From Chitinophagaceae bacterium (GTDB lineage: Bacteria; Bacteroidota; Bacteroidia; Chitinophagales; Chitinophagaceae), in NCBI GenBank assembly GCA_947379895.1, contig CANCPA010000004.1, positions 1-64,000 on the forward strand: a stretch of 64,000 nucleotides of DNA, read 5' to 3'. A program made the position numbers and the translations under genes. The notes beneath the pieces are model-generated. The model was not told the origin of the DNA. It worked only from the letters and a program-made list of their open reading frames with translations, and did not search any database. The stretch's first letter is position 1; each line of letters opens with the position of its first letter. This document shows positions 5,630-61,349 of the stretch, piece after piece.

Positions 5630-5866
5630 TGTATCTAGAAATTTTATAATTACATCAAAAAATTATGTATTTATATCTAGAGTTGATGCAGTTGCCACTA
5701 GAGTTAATTAGTATAACTCTAGTGTTTGTTCTCGTACCTCTAGTGTTAGTTCTTGCACCTCTAGTGTTATCTAACCTAACACTAGAGGTTACTCACTTAA
5801 CTCTAGTGTTAACTCTCCTGACTCTAGTGTTTATACGATTAACTCTAGAGTTAATTCAAATATTCC
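5630..5866. repeat. 21-bp-period palindromic repeat array 1 (core AACTCTAG(A/T)GTT)
   Basis: CTAG at 5635, then 5677, 5698, 5719, 5740, 5761, 5782, 5803, 5824, 5845: exact 21-bp steps, with one degenerate slot at 5656. 18-bp perfect palindrome ATTAACTCTAGAGTTAAT at 5838-5855. Confidence 0.95.
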
Positions 5867-9848: not shown

Positions 9849-10151
9849 ATGTCAGACGAATTAATACCCGTAAATATTGCAATTGCCGATAGAAGCTATC
9901 GACTTAAAGTACAAGTTTCAGATGAAGCGGTTCTTCGCACAACTGTCAAGATGATTAATGAAAAGATAGTTGAATACAAGACCTTGTTTTCTGGAAAAGA
10001 TATGCAGGACTATATCAGTATGGTGCTTATTTGGTTGGCAACCGAACAGACAAGGTCGGCAGAACATATTGTAGAAATTCAAAGTGCTGTAGATAAATTG
10101 ACTATTTTGGAAAATCAGATAGAGAGAGCGTTAGGGAGTGATGAGATATGA
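9849..10151 (+). CDS. zapA: Cell division protein ZapA-like
   Basis: MSDELIPVNIAIADRSYRLKVQVSDEAVLRTTVKMINEKIVEYKTLFSGKDMQDYISMVLIWLATE. Confidence 0.8.
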   Translation: MSDELIPVNIAIADRSYRLKVQVSDEAVLRTTVKMINEKIVEYKTLFSGKDMQDYISMVLIWLATEQTRSAEHIVEIQSAVDKLTILENQIERALGSDEI

Positions 10152-10317
10152 GTTATGAGTTGCAAGATGCAGGTTGCAAGTTTCAGGTTGCAAGTTACAG
10201 GATACAGGTTGCTAGTACTTTAACCCTGAAACTAGTAACTTGCAACTAGTAATCTGAAACCAGTAACTAGTAACTTGAAACCACAAAATTTAACATTTTA
10301 CATTTAAAATAATAACA

Positions 10318-18252: not shown

Positions 18253-18308
18253 AAGTATAATTGAGATTGAAAAATAGCATTAATTTGCCGTCACTTAAAA
18301 CAATAATA

Positions 18309-20894
18309 ATGAAGAATTTTAATTGGAAAGCATTTTTACCACATATTATTGCTATTCTTATCTTTTTAGTACTATCTATATTCTATTGTAAGCCGGCTTT
18401 AGATGGAAAAGTTGTTGAGCAACATGACGTACAACAATGGCATGGGATGTCGCGTCAATCATTTGTATTTAAAGAAAAGACAGGGCATTTTCCATTATGG
18501 ACAAATAGTATGTTTGGTGGTATGCCTGCCTATCAAGTTGCAATGGATAGTAAGGATCCTGCCTATTTATCAGTTTCTTTTTTCCACAAGTTGCTCTCTT
18601 TCGGTCTTCCTGTTCCTGCCTATTATTTATTTTTCTGTTGTTTAGGGCTCTATTTTTTGTGTGTTGTAATGGGTATCAATCCATGGTTAAGCATTGCAGG
18701 TGGTATTGCCTTTGGTTATTGTTCGTATGATCCTATTATCATTACCGCGGGTCATGATACCAAATTATTATCCATCGCTTATGCTCCTGCTGTACTTGCT
18801 TCGATACAATTGTTGTTTAAGAAAAGATATTGGCTTGGTTCAATCGCATTAATTCTAACTACATCAGGCCTGTTTAGTCAAGGACACCAACAAATTGCCT
18901 ACTATACTTTATTGATGGGCATTATAATGTTTATCCCTTTCTTAATTGAAACAATCAAGGCAAAAGATTTTAAGCATTTAGGAGCAACTCTTGCTTTTAC
19001 AATAATATGTTCAACCCTAACATTGCTTACAGTAACAAATTCTTATTTGCCAACTTACGAATATTCGAAGGAAACAATGAGAGGTGGTGGTAGTGGTCTT
19101 ACCTTAGGAACAACCGAAAAAAAGAATAAAACAGAAGGTGGACTTGATAAAGATTATGCTTTTAGATGGAGTTATGGTATTGGTGAAACGATGACTTTAA
19201 TGGTGCCTAATGCATATGGAGGGGGTAGCTCGACAAGATTTGGAGAAGATTCTAAAATTGAGAATTTATTACAGAACTCACCCGAAATTCCACAACAAGC
19301 CATTCAACAACTTTTTCAAGCAGCTTCTGCTTATTGGGGCGATCAACCTGGTACGTCAGGACCTGTTTATTTAGGAGCATTTATTTGCTTGTTTGCATTT
19401 GCAGGTTTTATTCTATCTGAAAATAAAAATAAATGGTGGTTATTGGCTATCACAATATTTGGGATAGTCTTAGCGTGGGGAAAGAACTTTGAAGCGTTTA
19501 ACTACTTCTTGTTTGATCATATGCCTTTCTACAAGAAATTTAGAGCACCGTCTATGTCTCTAATAATGCCGCAAGTGTCTGTTTCTTTGATGGCCATCTT
19601 GTTTATCAATGAGTTTATTGTAAAATTTGATTCGGCTAAAGAAATAGCAAAAGAAGAAAAAGCGAAGTTCCTTAAAGCCTTCTTGATTATTGCGGGTTCA
19701 TTAGCAGGTTTGTTGATAGCCTTTTATCTGTTTGCAGGATATAGTAATTCAAACACACTTGCATTGAGAAAGAATTTGGAAAATGCTTTCAAATCAAATG
19801 ATACATTCATAAAAAGCTATATGTCTGCATGGGTCGAAGATCGGAAGGCTTTGTATTTAAAGGATATGTTGCGGACTTTAGGTATTATGGCAGTGGCAGT
19901 AGCAGCCATATTTGCCTACACTAGAAAAATAGTAAAGGCTCCAATTGTAATTTCTGTTTTTGTTTTATTAGCTATTATTGATTTATTGCCAATAGGAACA
20001 AGGTATTTTAACGAAAATAATTTTGTTGATGCCGATACCTACGAGCAAGCCTATCAGAAATTTAATGCCGACTTACAACTTGACAGAGACACTAGTTTCT
20101 ACAGAGTTTTGAATCTTGCCTATTTTAATGGAAATAGCTTTAGTGTCGATTTAAGTAACTCTTTCAACGATGCTCTTGCATCCTATCATCATAACACAAT
20201 TGGTGGCTATCATCCTGCAAAATTGTCGAGATATAATGATTTAATCGAACATCAGTTATATAAAAATATACAAGCTTGGGGTAGTAATCCAAATACGAAG
20301 GATAGTTTCCCTGTTTTGAATATGTTGAATATGAAATATGTCATTGTTCCCGATCAAAAAGATCCAAAACAAACGATGGCTGTTCCTAATCCTTATGCCT
20401 CAGGAAATTGTTGGTTTGTTAAGGAAGTTAAATTTGTAAAGGATGCTAATGAGGAAATGCTTTCCCTCAATCATTTCAATCCTGCAACTACTGCCTTTGT
20501 TAATGATGAATTTAAGTCAGTAGTAGGCAATCAACCTTCTTTTGATTCAACTGCTTCAATTAAATTTATACAAAATAATAATGACTACATAAAGTATGAA
20601 AGCAATGCGTCTTCTAATCAGTTTGCAGTATTTAGCGAAGTGTATTATAGTCAAGGATGGAAGGCATTCATTGATGGTAAGAAAACCGATTATTGCCGAG
20701 TGAATTATGTACTGAGAGGGTTGCCTCTACCAGCAGGTAAGCATTTGATTGAGTTTAAATTTGAGCCATCCCTTGTAAAATTAGGTGAGCAATTATCTAA
20801 ATACGCCTCTTACATTTTAGTCTTACTTATATTACTATTCGGATTTTTGGAATGGAAAGATTGTAAGTCAGAGAAAAATAAGATTCAAGGGTAG
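18309..20894 (+). CDS. YfhO family membrane protein
   Basis: Large multi-TM protein with KVVEQHDVQQWHGMSRQ, GINPWLSIAGGIAFGYCSYDP, and C-terminal YSQGWKAFIDGKKTDYCRVNYVLRGLPLPAGKHLIEFKFEP. Start set at ATG 18309. Confidence 0.88.
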   Translation: MKNFNWKAFLPHIIAILIFLVLSIFYCKPALDGKVVEQHDVQQWHGMSRQSFVFKEKTGHFPLWTNSMFGGMPAYQVAMDSKDPAYLSVSFFHKLLSFGLPVPAYYLFFCCLGLYFLCVVMGINPWLSIAGGIAFGYCSYDPIIITAGHDTKLLSIAYAPAVLASIQLLFKKRYWLGSIALILTTSGLFSQGHQQIAYYTLLMGIIMFIPFLIETIKAKDFKHLGATLAFTIICSTLTLLTVTNSYLPTYEYSKETMRGGGSGLTLGTTEKKNKTEGGLDKDYAFRWSYGIGETMTLMVPNAYGGGSSTRFGEDSKIENLLQNSPEIPQQAIQQLFQAASAYWGDQPGTSGPVYLGAFICLFAFAGFILSENKNKWWLLAITIFGIVLAWGKNFEAFNYFLFDHMPFYKKFRAPSMSLIMPQVSVSLMAILFINEFIVKFDSAKEIAKEEKAKFLKAFLIIAGSLAGLLIAFYLFAGYSNSNTLALRKNLENAFKSNDTFIKSYMSAWVEDRKALYLKDMLRTLGIMAVAVAAIFAYTRKIVKAPIVISVFVLLAIIDLLPIGTRYFNENNFVDADTYEQAYQKFNADLQLDRDTSFYRVLNLAYFNGNSFSVDLSNSFNDALASYHHNTIGGYHPAKLSRYNDLIEHQLYKNIQAWGSNPNTKDSFPVLNMLNMKYVIVPDQKDPKQTMAVPNPYASGNCWFVKEVKFVKDANEEMLSLNHFNPATTAFVNDEFKSVVGNQPSFDSTASIKFIQNNNDYIKYESNASSNQFAVFSEVYYSQGWKAFIDGKKTDYCRVNYVLRGLPLPAGKHLIEFKFEPSLVKLGEQLSKYASYILVLLILLFGFLEWKDCKSEKNKIQG

Positions 20895-20906: not shown

Positions 20907-21283
20907 ATTCTAGAAAATTAGTAACCACTTATTAAGAATTTTCGAGTACTTATTCGTAATAAGTTAAAGCTTATTGCTAATTAGTAAAAGCTTATTGAAA
21001 AAAAGTATAAGCTTATCGGGAATAAGTGAGGTCTTATTGGGAATAACTGTTCGAATTTGGACAGCTGTGAGTACTTATTTTGAGTTAGAGAATACTTATT
21101 CTGAATTAGTGAGCACTTATTGCTAGTAAGTTAAAGCTTATTGCTAGTAAGTTAAAGCTTATTGCTAATTAGAGAGTTCTTATTGAGAGTTAGTTTCCAC
21201 TTAATTTGAGTTTGAAAGGACTTATCAGTAATTAGAGAGTCCTTATTGTCAGTAAGTACTCTCTAATATCATAAAAGCTTTAA
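20907..21283. repeat. 21-bp-period palindromic repeat array 2 (unit CTTATT-N3-A(A/G)TAAG + 6 bp)
   Basis: CTTATT-like half-site at 20928, 20949, 20970, 20991, 21012, 21033, [degenerate 20-bp slot], 21074, 21095, 21116, 21137, 21158, 21179, 21200, 21221, 21242; 15 recognisable units in 21-bp steps, with degenerate edge units at 20907 and 21263. Confidence 0.96.
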
Positions 21284-21360: not shown

Positions 21361-22401
21361 ATGGAATTGTTTTTACCAGTGAAAAATGAATTAAGCAGGC
21401 ACATACAATCTTGTTGTGAGGAACTGTATCATAAAATGCAACAACTTTCAGTTGCGGATATAGGATTATCTTCTCACGGTCAATTTTATTTTAATTCCCG
21501 CCACATAAAAAGGCTATTTTTTTCTATCGAATCTAGTGCACAGTTATTGTACCATAGTATTGTTTTGACCAATAAAAAGGTGGAAGATGTAGTGGTTATG
21601 GATTATGGTGCAGGGATTGGAAGTTTGTACATTTTGGCAAATATGATTGGTTGTAAACAAGTTATTTATAATGATTTATTTGAAGAGTGGAAGAATAATG
21701 GAAAGCTAATTGCCGAGGCTCTTTCTATAAATATTGATGCGTATATTTTGGGAGATATTGACGATACGCTTTTGTATCTAGAAAAAGAAAAGATTAGTTG
21801 CGATATTATTATATCCCGCAACGTAATTGAACATATTCACAAATTAGAAGATTTTTATTCGTTGATAAATAAGTTTCAACCAAATGCAATCGTTTATTCA
21901 TCTACAAGTGCAAATTTTTATAATCCTGCCGTGAACTTGAAGCATGTTTTAATGCATTTGAAGACGGAGAAAATATTTACACGAGATAGAACAAAAATCA
22001 TTTCAGAGTATACAACAAAGCTGTCTGAAAAAGAAGTATCCTTGCTTTCGCAAAAGACAAGAGGATATAATATTGAAGGGATTAAGCTGGCAGTAGATAA
22101 TTATATCTCAACTAAGACATTACCCAAAAAAGCATATACCTACACAAATGCATTTGAACCAACTTTGAATATTTGGTGTGAGAATTTATTAGTATTTAGT
22201 GTTTATAAGCAAAAATTAATTGCAGGCAACTATGACGCACAATTTAAACCTGGTTTTTGGGATACTCATTATCCCGCTGCTTGGAAAAACTTGCCTGTTA
22301 AAATATTAAATAGTATTATTAATATAGTGGGGGATTTCGGGTTTGTTCTTGCTCCATTCATCTATGTTATTGCTATTCCTAGAAAGCTAAATAATAAATA
22401 A
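21361..22401 (+). CDS. Class I SAM-dependent methyltransferase
   Basis: VVMDYGAGIGSLYILANMIGCKQVIYNDLFEEW...CDIIISRNVIEHIHKLEDF. Confidence 0.8.
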   Translation: MELFLPVKNELSRHIQSCCEELYHKMQQLSVADIGLSSHGQFYFNSRHIKRLFFSIESSAQLLYHSIVLTNKKVEDVVVMDYGAGIGSLYILANMIGCKQVIYNDLFEEWKNNGKLIAEALSINIDAYILGDIDDTLLYLEKEKISCDIIISRNVIEHIHKLEDFYSLINKFQPNAIVYSSTSANFYNPAVNLKHVLMHLKTEKIFTRDRTKIISEYTTKLSEKEVSLLSQKTRGYNIEGIKLAVDNYISTKTLPKKAYTYTNAFEPTLNIWCENLLVFSVYKQKLIAGNYDAQFKPGFWDTHYPAAWKNLPVKILNSIINIVGDFGFVLAPFIYVIAIPRKLNNK

Positions 22402-44848: not shown

Positions 44849-45065
44849 GCACGTGCTTGTGAGACAGCCGCACATACGTGAATGACAGAAGCACGTGCTT
44901 TTGTCACAAAAAGAATCTTTGTAAGGTTCCCGCAGGTGCTTTTGTCGTAGCCGTACTTACGTGAATGGCTGCCGCACGTGCGGGAGTCGTGGAAGTAAGT
45001 GCTTGTGTCATTGCAGCACGTGCTTGGGTGGTTGCAGCACGTACGGGAATGGCAGCCGCATTTGA
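44849..45065. repeat. 21-bp-period palindromic repeat array 3 (core GCACGTGC)
   Basis: GCACGTGC-like core at 44849, 44870, 44891, [degenerate slot, 41-bp step], 44932, 44953, 44974, 44995, 45016, 45037, 45058. Confidence 0.95.
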
Positions 45066-45175
45066 AAAAGTAAGAATTTATATATCTTACAGGTGATAAT
45101 TGAACGAAAAAGTGATAGGGTTTTATATAAATAAATTAGAAATTTTCCCTTCTTATCCTCGAGGTAAGACTATTC

Positions 45176-56166: not shown

Positions 56167-56378
56167 ATAATGTAAAATAGCTTAGGAAGTTGTACGTCAT
56201 AAGTTATACGTTTTAAGTTATAAGTTATACGTTTTAGGTTATACGTTTTAAGTTTAAAGCAGACTTAATTATGAAATATGCGGTTCAATTCATTATGAAT
56301 TATTACGTTTAACCTATAATCTAATACTTACTACCTAATACTTACAACTTAATTGTCATAACTCATAACTCATCGCTC

Positions 56379-60825: not shown

Positions 60826-61190
60826 AAAGGAAAGTAAAATCAGAATTAAGTGCAAAATTGATGTATGTCGTTATGAATCTGATCTGTGTGAGATTTGAAT
60901 TGATGTATGTCGTTAAGCATCTAATCCATATCGTTATGAATCTGATGGTATCGATTATTAATCAGAAGGGTGTCGTTATGTATCTAATCCATATTATTAG
61001 AAATCAGAGCCCTGCCTTTAGCCCACAAACACAGGTGAGATTTAAAAAAAGAGGTGTCGTTATGAAAAAAAGGCAACTGAGGCAATTTATTACTGAGGTG
61101 TGATTAGTTATTAATGGTAAGATGTTTAGTAAAAGCGGTACGAGGGTAGGTAAAAGGCATAGAAGATAAAGATTTAGAGGTGTCGTTTGA
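60826..61190. repeat. 21-bp-period repeat array 4 (core CATATCGTTATG / TCGTTATGNATCTGAT)
   Basis: TCGTTA-type core at 60868, 60910, 60931, 60951 (one 20 + one 22 step), 60973, 60994, 61057, 61183; degenerate TGAGATTT-type units at 60889 and 61036. All but 60951 lie on the same 21-bp grid. Confidence 0.85.
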
Positions 61191-61349
61191 GATATAAGTT
61201 ATGAGATATGAGTTTTGAAATATGAGTTATGAGTTCGTGTATTATGTTATAAGTTTTTTTGGTGGCGGATTATTTGTTAGTAACTCACCTTACACATTTT
61301 CAAAAATTACAAAAAGGTTACCACAAAGTGTGAAATAAAGGGGTTCTTG

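Follow-up and report, generated by a model that had tools for sequence, protein, structure and literature searches.

What is the strictly periodic array of short inverted repeats that lies between a gene for a YfhO-family membrane protein and a gene for a methyltransferase-like protein? The locus is found in a window of 64,000 nucleotides, the whole stretch of DNA analysed here, on contig C4 of a 5.32-Mb assembly of 401 contigs (the host genome). Same-genus relatives were available as Chitinophagaceae MAGs, and the sample contains one genome per species.

Anatomy of the array

The YfhO-family ORF, the left neighbour of the array, occupies positions 18261 to 20894, and the methyltransferase-like ORF on the right occupies positions 21361 to 22401. 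Both are on the plus strand, and the match of the latter to Methyltransf_23 falls below the curated cut-off. The core array consists of sixteen 21-bp slots at 20928 to 21262 (arrays are given here without strand), each formed by a CTTATT-N3-AATAAG dyad and a 6-bp spacer; 15 are recognisable and one is ruined. Units of the first phase start at 20928, 20949, 20970, 20991, 21012, and 21033, and those of the second at 21074, 21095, 21116, 21137, 21158, 21179, 21200, 21221, and 21242. Every step is 21 bp with the sole exception of the 20-bp step from 21033 to 21053, which directly precedes the degenerate slot GAATTTGGACAGCTG at 21053 to 21073. The two units at 21116 to 21157 are identical copies of CTTATTGCTAGTAAGTTAAAG. 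Half-degenerate edge slots were read from the sequence on the left (20907 to 20927, with the right arm AATTAG retained at 20916) and on the right (CTAATATCATAAAAG at 21263 to 21277).

The original prediction had described at least 15 such units at 21-bp spacing in this gap, one degenerate 20-bp slot at about 21054, and identity of the units at 21116 and 21137 over 21 bp, all of which are borne out by the sequence. The recent unit duplication that it proposed is supported by the identical neighbours and by an orthologous array in two relatives (G004 and G006), for which 10 and 9 units are scored. As a check it had named the conservation of each column, with a uniform profile counting against it. 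The column information is 1.62 bits in the arms, 0.28 bits in the loop, and 0.47 bits in the spacer (Mann-Whitney p = 6e-5). A simple VNTR is ruled out by this concentration of information in the dyad arms.

The self-match of the array is 0.59, 0.54, and 0.54 at lags of 21, 42, and 63, respectively, compared with 0.295 expected. There are no other peaks, and the flat profile at lags 7 and 14 rules out an origin from 7-bp repeats. Because of the 20-bp step the array falls into two phases. Eight dyads with two or fewer mismatches share one 21-bp phase, compared with a maximum of one in 2,000 dinucleotide shuffles of the array region. The exact-pair pattern has six matches in the whole 5.3-Mb genome, all of them within this array, and the reversed control pattern has none.

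The CTTATT family and the class of period-21 arrays

The paired CTTATT unit, with two mismatches allowed, was found at unrelated loci in 8 of the 13 congeneric genomes; the ~100 other Chitinophagaceae genera in the sample gave no match. Of twenty such places that were retrieved, most contain an array with four or more units. The 147 units pooled from the genus loci carry 0.9 to 1.8 bits in the arms, 0.02 to 0.04 bits in the N3 loop, and a weak NRNNYN preference in the spacer. A loop length of 3 and a spacer length of 6 predominate. When the nearest spacing is measured without bias, 58 cases give 21 bp and nearly all of the others two to four times that value. In the orthologous array of G004 and G006, which is a solo (gene-less) array, differences occur at 0 of 96 arm positions and at 7 of 66 loop and spacer positions (p = 0.0015). 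This is suggestive of constraint on the arms rather than proof, since the right flank is likewise invariant over its first ~60 bp and the constraint is not unique to the arms there.

The genes beside the CTTATT arrays are diverse and include Tgt/TyrRS, KdpA/PurH, GcvT, CcoG/CcoP, PCMT, an M42 peptidase, and an Mrp-type ATPase, among others. The 20 flanking proteins that were scanned function in metabolism, transport, tRNA modification, and the like. The gap orthologous to that between the YfhO and methyltransferase genes contains 7-bp repeats (heptads) in loci L038-L042 and L053, and neither heptads nor a CTTATT array in L043 and L050. A link of the array to YfhO or to polysaccharide genes, which the original prediction had raised as a point to check, is rejected in view of these array-free relatives and the unrelated neighbours of the family; on present evidence the YfhO ORF is not functionally linked to the array. 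What stands of the earlier reading is a phased array conserved in its dyad, with recent unit duplication. A genome-wide class and a home gene family, both described below, had been missed.

A lag scan was applied to 1.64 Mb of the 5.32-Mb host genome, about a third, and 45 noncoding period-21 arrays without a 7-bp sub-period were detected. Among the other periods between 5 and 45, none yielded more than one such noncoding array, except 42 (43 arrays) and 41 (7 arrays), which are read as double units of the period-21 class, and period 7 and its multiples, which form a separate heptad class. Extrapolation to 5.32 Mb gives roughly 150 period-21 arrays. A coding repeat of 7 amino acids is unlikely, since the arrays of this class lie between genes and, except for the double unit of 42, no further multiples of 3 appear as noncoding periods. 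The array under study belongs to this class, with exact 21-bp tandem units and no 7-bp sub-period.

The units mostly differ from array to array. Some recur in the host genome, as in a six-array family (CACTCNNGTACGTGCTGCAAC), a three-array family (AACNTATNAGTT), and others. The window contains three further period-21 arrays. The one at 5680 to 5860 is a solo array of a different family with a AACTCTAGWGTT dyad, that at 44914 to 45081 is a member of the six-array family, and that at 60854 to 60989 is weaker. Solo arrays were found in all gene orientations, including between convergent genes, in proportions that, compared by eye, resemble those of large gaps generally; therefore, solo arrays are not simply promoter elements. 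Higher-order repeats of several units occur in the period-21 arrays of L135 (17089-17399) and L155 (4621-4828) and point to block duplication.

Heptads are located in the window at 10140-10285, 56187-56365, and 61188-61235, and downstream of YfhO in L012/L041, L038-L042, and L053. At the 3' ends of genes, a run of forward heptads often precedes a reverse-complement one. Intergenic arrays with a period of 22 were seen in Prevotellaceae and Bacteroidaceae (L098, L099, L101, L105, L106, L108, and L112), with locus-specific and often dyadic units such as GGTAANNNNNTTACC. No Fn3-like match, in the sense of the gene family described below, was obtained in those loci, which speaks against their being part of the same system; they are possibly an independent analogue.

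Association with Fn3-like genes and turnover of the arrays

A multi-copy gene family of the genus encodes proteins of ~210 amino acids whose C-terminal half is fibronectin-III-like (Fn3-like). Across this half the family profile has weak matches to fibronectin type III chains in the PDB, and for one member there is a match to Pfam fn3 (E = 0.005). The L277-type protein has no match in Pfam or NCBIfam. A single-protein structure prediction gave a pLDDT of 36 and was set aside. The product resembles the ~200-residue "fibronectin type III domain-containing" proteins common in Bacteroidota, a resemblance that we take as a lead. Of the 103 Chitinophagaceae genera in the sample, 18 have the gene; a few of the matches counted are weak ones to longer Fn3 proteins. 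Heptads also occur immediately past the stop codon of many Fn3-like genes.

Most Fn3-like copies with upstream sequence carry a 21-bp array there, each with a private unit. A period-21 array lies upstream within 550 bp in 43 of 64 genes, with four more at period 22, and no array was detected for ~17 of the 64. Downstream arrays were found for only 3 of 64. Among control ORFs of the host genome, 47 of 780 (6%) have a period-21 array; the value of 24% for ORFs adjoining Fn3-like loci is probably due to gaps shared with the Fn3-like genes. The pairing also occurs in two single-contig genomes (G122 and G154), and an assembly artefact is therefore unlikely as its source. In other genera the array lies up to 350 bp from the ORF. 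The family HMM has no match in the window, and the array under study thus has no Fn3-like gene directly downstream; with the YfhO and methyltransferase-like ORFs as neighbours, it is a solo array.

Two further observations concern the upstream regions. The arrays of L290, L296, L297, L291, L302, and L304 have different arms but the same ATG-YGR-CAT core around one dyad centre, which suggests that a portion of the unit may be shared by all families. A conserved stretch (...HFNHLILYIPPTR*) is located ~50-200 bp upstream of the array in L290, L283, L291, L296, L297, L302, and L304, and is followed by a GGGAGGCGTATTTGGTATGCCTCCC hairpin immediately ahead of the array. This arrangement recurs at non-orthologous copies and is a possible module boundary.

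The CTTATT unit connects the array under study to this gene family. One CTTATT array (C312 in the host genome, C198 in G009) sits inside a dispersed element with termini of the GGTGCATAAAAG type. In G009 this array lies immediately upstream of an intact 211-aa ORF of the Fn3-like family (L277/L222), and in the host genome it lies upstream of decayed copies of the L277 gene (C307 and C48). The array under study thus belongs to the CTTATT-N3-AATAAG family whose gene-linked copy adjoins the L277 gene. The element arm that flanks the array is present in nine copies in the host genome (G000; C42, C61, C149, C162, C194, C237, C252, C312, and C386), several of them at contig ends that break within the array. 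Multiplication inside this element is one dispersal route of the CTTATT array. The GGTGCATAAAAG-type terminus is also found as ~90-bp palindromic elements, with more than 200 matches in G011.

The location of a CTTATT array in a multi-copy element raises the alternative that the arrays are remnants of mobile DNA, being transposase or replication-initiator sites of a transposon or plasmid end, or an iteron array, the period of which likewise equals two helical turns. This alternative is very unlikely. No rep, par, or transposase gene was found among the 20 scanned neighbours of CTTATT arrays, and the lone ParA-like match is an Mrp/NUBPL-type iron-sulfur ATPase. No family known for mobility or defence was matched by the linked Fn3-like gene, with no hit in PADLOC and no informative PHROG. 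No GGTGCATAAAAG-type end lies within 3 mismatches near the array under study. Viral contigs gave no match, which speaks against a phage origin as well.

The turnover of the arrays was followed at L283 (G010), L290 (G001), and L302 (G007), which were taken as one orthologous locus on the basis of matching genes and matching flanks on both sides. G001 and G010 share the unit CTTGGATG-CGA-CATCCAAG; the unit in G007 is different (AACTT...AAGTT). The identity between G001 and G007 is 0.75-0.93 to the left of the array, 0.33-0.39 inside it, and 0.70-0.98 over the gene. The unit has been wholly replaced while the adjacent protein remains ~83% identical. The paralogues L279 and L289 of a single genome encode proteins that are 87% identical, and their arrays are unrelated. 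Clear sharing of units between genomes is confined to the closest pairs, at 94% and one at 82% identity; other pairs at 80-84% do not share units, and two more distant pairs barely pass the threshold. The arrays change faster than the gene, yet the 21-bp period and the dyad symmetry are kept. Because the units switch completely beside a nearly unchanged protein, it may not be the Fn3-like protein that reads the sequence.

Such replacement would also be produced by a selfish or neutral satellite, that is, by a copying process with a 21-bp ruler that makes and spreads functionless arrays in which the dyads are a by-product. A process of this kind is a serious rival, above all for the solo arrays, although we consider it somewhat unlikely as the full explanation. 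It would account for the strict period across many unrelated units, the large number of solo arrays, the hitch-hiking of a CTTATT array in a multi-copy element, and the host-genome sites that are empty where relatives hold CTTATT arrays at the orthologous positions. It does not predict a strong and specific association upstream, and not downstream, of one gene family, the conservation of the arms alone within and between species, or the retention of the CTTATT unit in 8 species.

Symmetry and the proposed DNA lattice

The gene-linked arrays are dyadic at p < 0.05 in 24 of 47 cases, with a median p of 0.04; among arrays of the host genome only 15 of 60 are individually dyadic at this level. The axis opposite the main dyad is also symmetric above chance in the gene-linked arrays (t = 4.55, n = 44) and more weakly so in the solo arrays (t = 1.89). 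Successive dyads of the lattice are thus 10.5 bp apart, with one at each turn of the helix.

The dyads could also represent RNA, with each unit transcribed as a 6-8-bp hairpin in a leader or a small RNA. The 3-nt loops are compatible with this possibility, as are the arms, which are complementary within each family though different between families, and the plus strand of the array region, which folds better than its shuffles (z = -4.5). The z score of the minus strand is only -1.9, and the minimum free energy structure joins distant arms instead of forming unit hairpins. In the CTTATT family the arms vary independently, with pairing at the independence expectation at all six pairs and no compensatory excess; such variation is expected of DNA half-sites rather than of RNA stems. 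Some families are loopless palindromes, for example AACTTATAAGTT, and arrays are located as far as 350 bp from the ORF or between convergent genes. No Rfam family was matched at the gathering threshold, and a match to rhtB at 26.6 bits, where 55 are needed, is treated as chance. An array of RNA hairpins is accordingly improbable, and the dyad axes at each 10.5 bp together with the independent arms favour a protein-bound DNA lattice.

The arrays are read most simply as a DNA lattice to which a dimeric or oligomeric protein would bind cooperatively along one face of the helix, given the fixed geometry, the conservation confined to the arms, the independence of the arms, the loopless palindromes elsewhere, and the dyad at each turn. 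A putative DNA-binding protein, either the Fn3-like protein itself or another, would occupy the half-sites. With axes 10.5 bp apart on one face, a cooperative nucleoprotein stretch could form. At the home locus this stretch may switch the Fn3-like gene in cis, and the solo arrays would be dispersed copies on which the same complex could assemble at other sites. It is doubtful that the solo arrays act as simple operators, because they show no clear preference for promoter sides and also lie between convergent genes. The anatomy of the array, its unit family, the association with home genes, the turnover, and one route of dispersal follow directly from the sequences; binding, regulation, and the role of solo arrays are inferred. 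The explanation as a whole, in which the array between the YfhO and methyltransferase genes is a solo member of a protein-lattice class with its home upstream of the multi-copy Fn3-like genes, is held only tentatively.

Plasmid Rep iterons, parC/parS-type arrays, and omega heptads are iteron, centromere, and tandem-operator arrays that likewise place helix-phased tandem sites with a family-specific unit upstream of a gene. The arrays described here differ in being chromosomal, with more than 100 estimated in the host genome, and mostly gene-less. No Rep, Par, or transposase gene was seen beside them, the linked gene is Fn3-like, and the unit is replaced wholesale at a conserved locus. CRISPR arrays also contain dyadic repeats in tandem; here the spacers are 6 bp and not unique cargo, the units are degenerate, and no cas gene was found among the scanned neighbours. 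The TAACTGA heptanucleotide repeats of Beggiatoaceae, Cyanobacteria, and Bacteroidetes (PMC4679880) are similarly short, intergenic, and tandem, and occur at many loci in Bacteroidetes, but have a period of 7 and no dyad lattice; the array under study has no signal at lag 7, and the period-7 arrays of the host genome are separate. REP/BIME sequences are dispersed extragenic palindromes with GTAG/CGTC tags (PMC3733652). In contrast, the 21-bp arrays are strictly tandem with a unit that differs per locus, and no RAYT or Y1 transposase was found among the scanned neighbours. Searches of Rfam, Pfam, NCBIfam, and PADLOC gave no match, and PHROG gave no informative match. In the open-access literature, papers on heptamers, REP sequences, and repeats in general were found and none describing such arrays, so that the array-gene system appears to be undescribed.

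It is quite possible, though somewhat short of probable, that Chitinophagaceae possess a module of multi-copy Fn3-like genes, most with a private dyad-lattice array on a 21-bp ruler (22 bp in a few), in which the arrays are replaced wholesale faster than the gene and seed gene-less arrays. Such a module would be a recognition or regulatory system that diversifies sequence and conserves geometry. That so many unrelated sequences obey one fixed 21-bp geometry suggests a protein machine able to measure DNA. The pairing of each gene copy with a private array makes specificity, autoregulation, and turnover testable pair by pair. If the arrays are rewritten while the flanks and the gene are kept, this would represent a locus-specific satellite-forming process with private codes in bacteria, and such satellites, if real, would be comparable in logic to fast-evolving centromeres or recombination hotspots.
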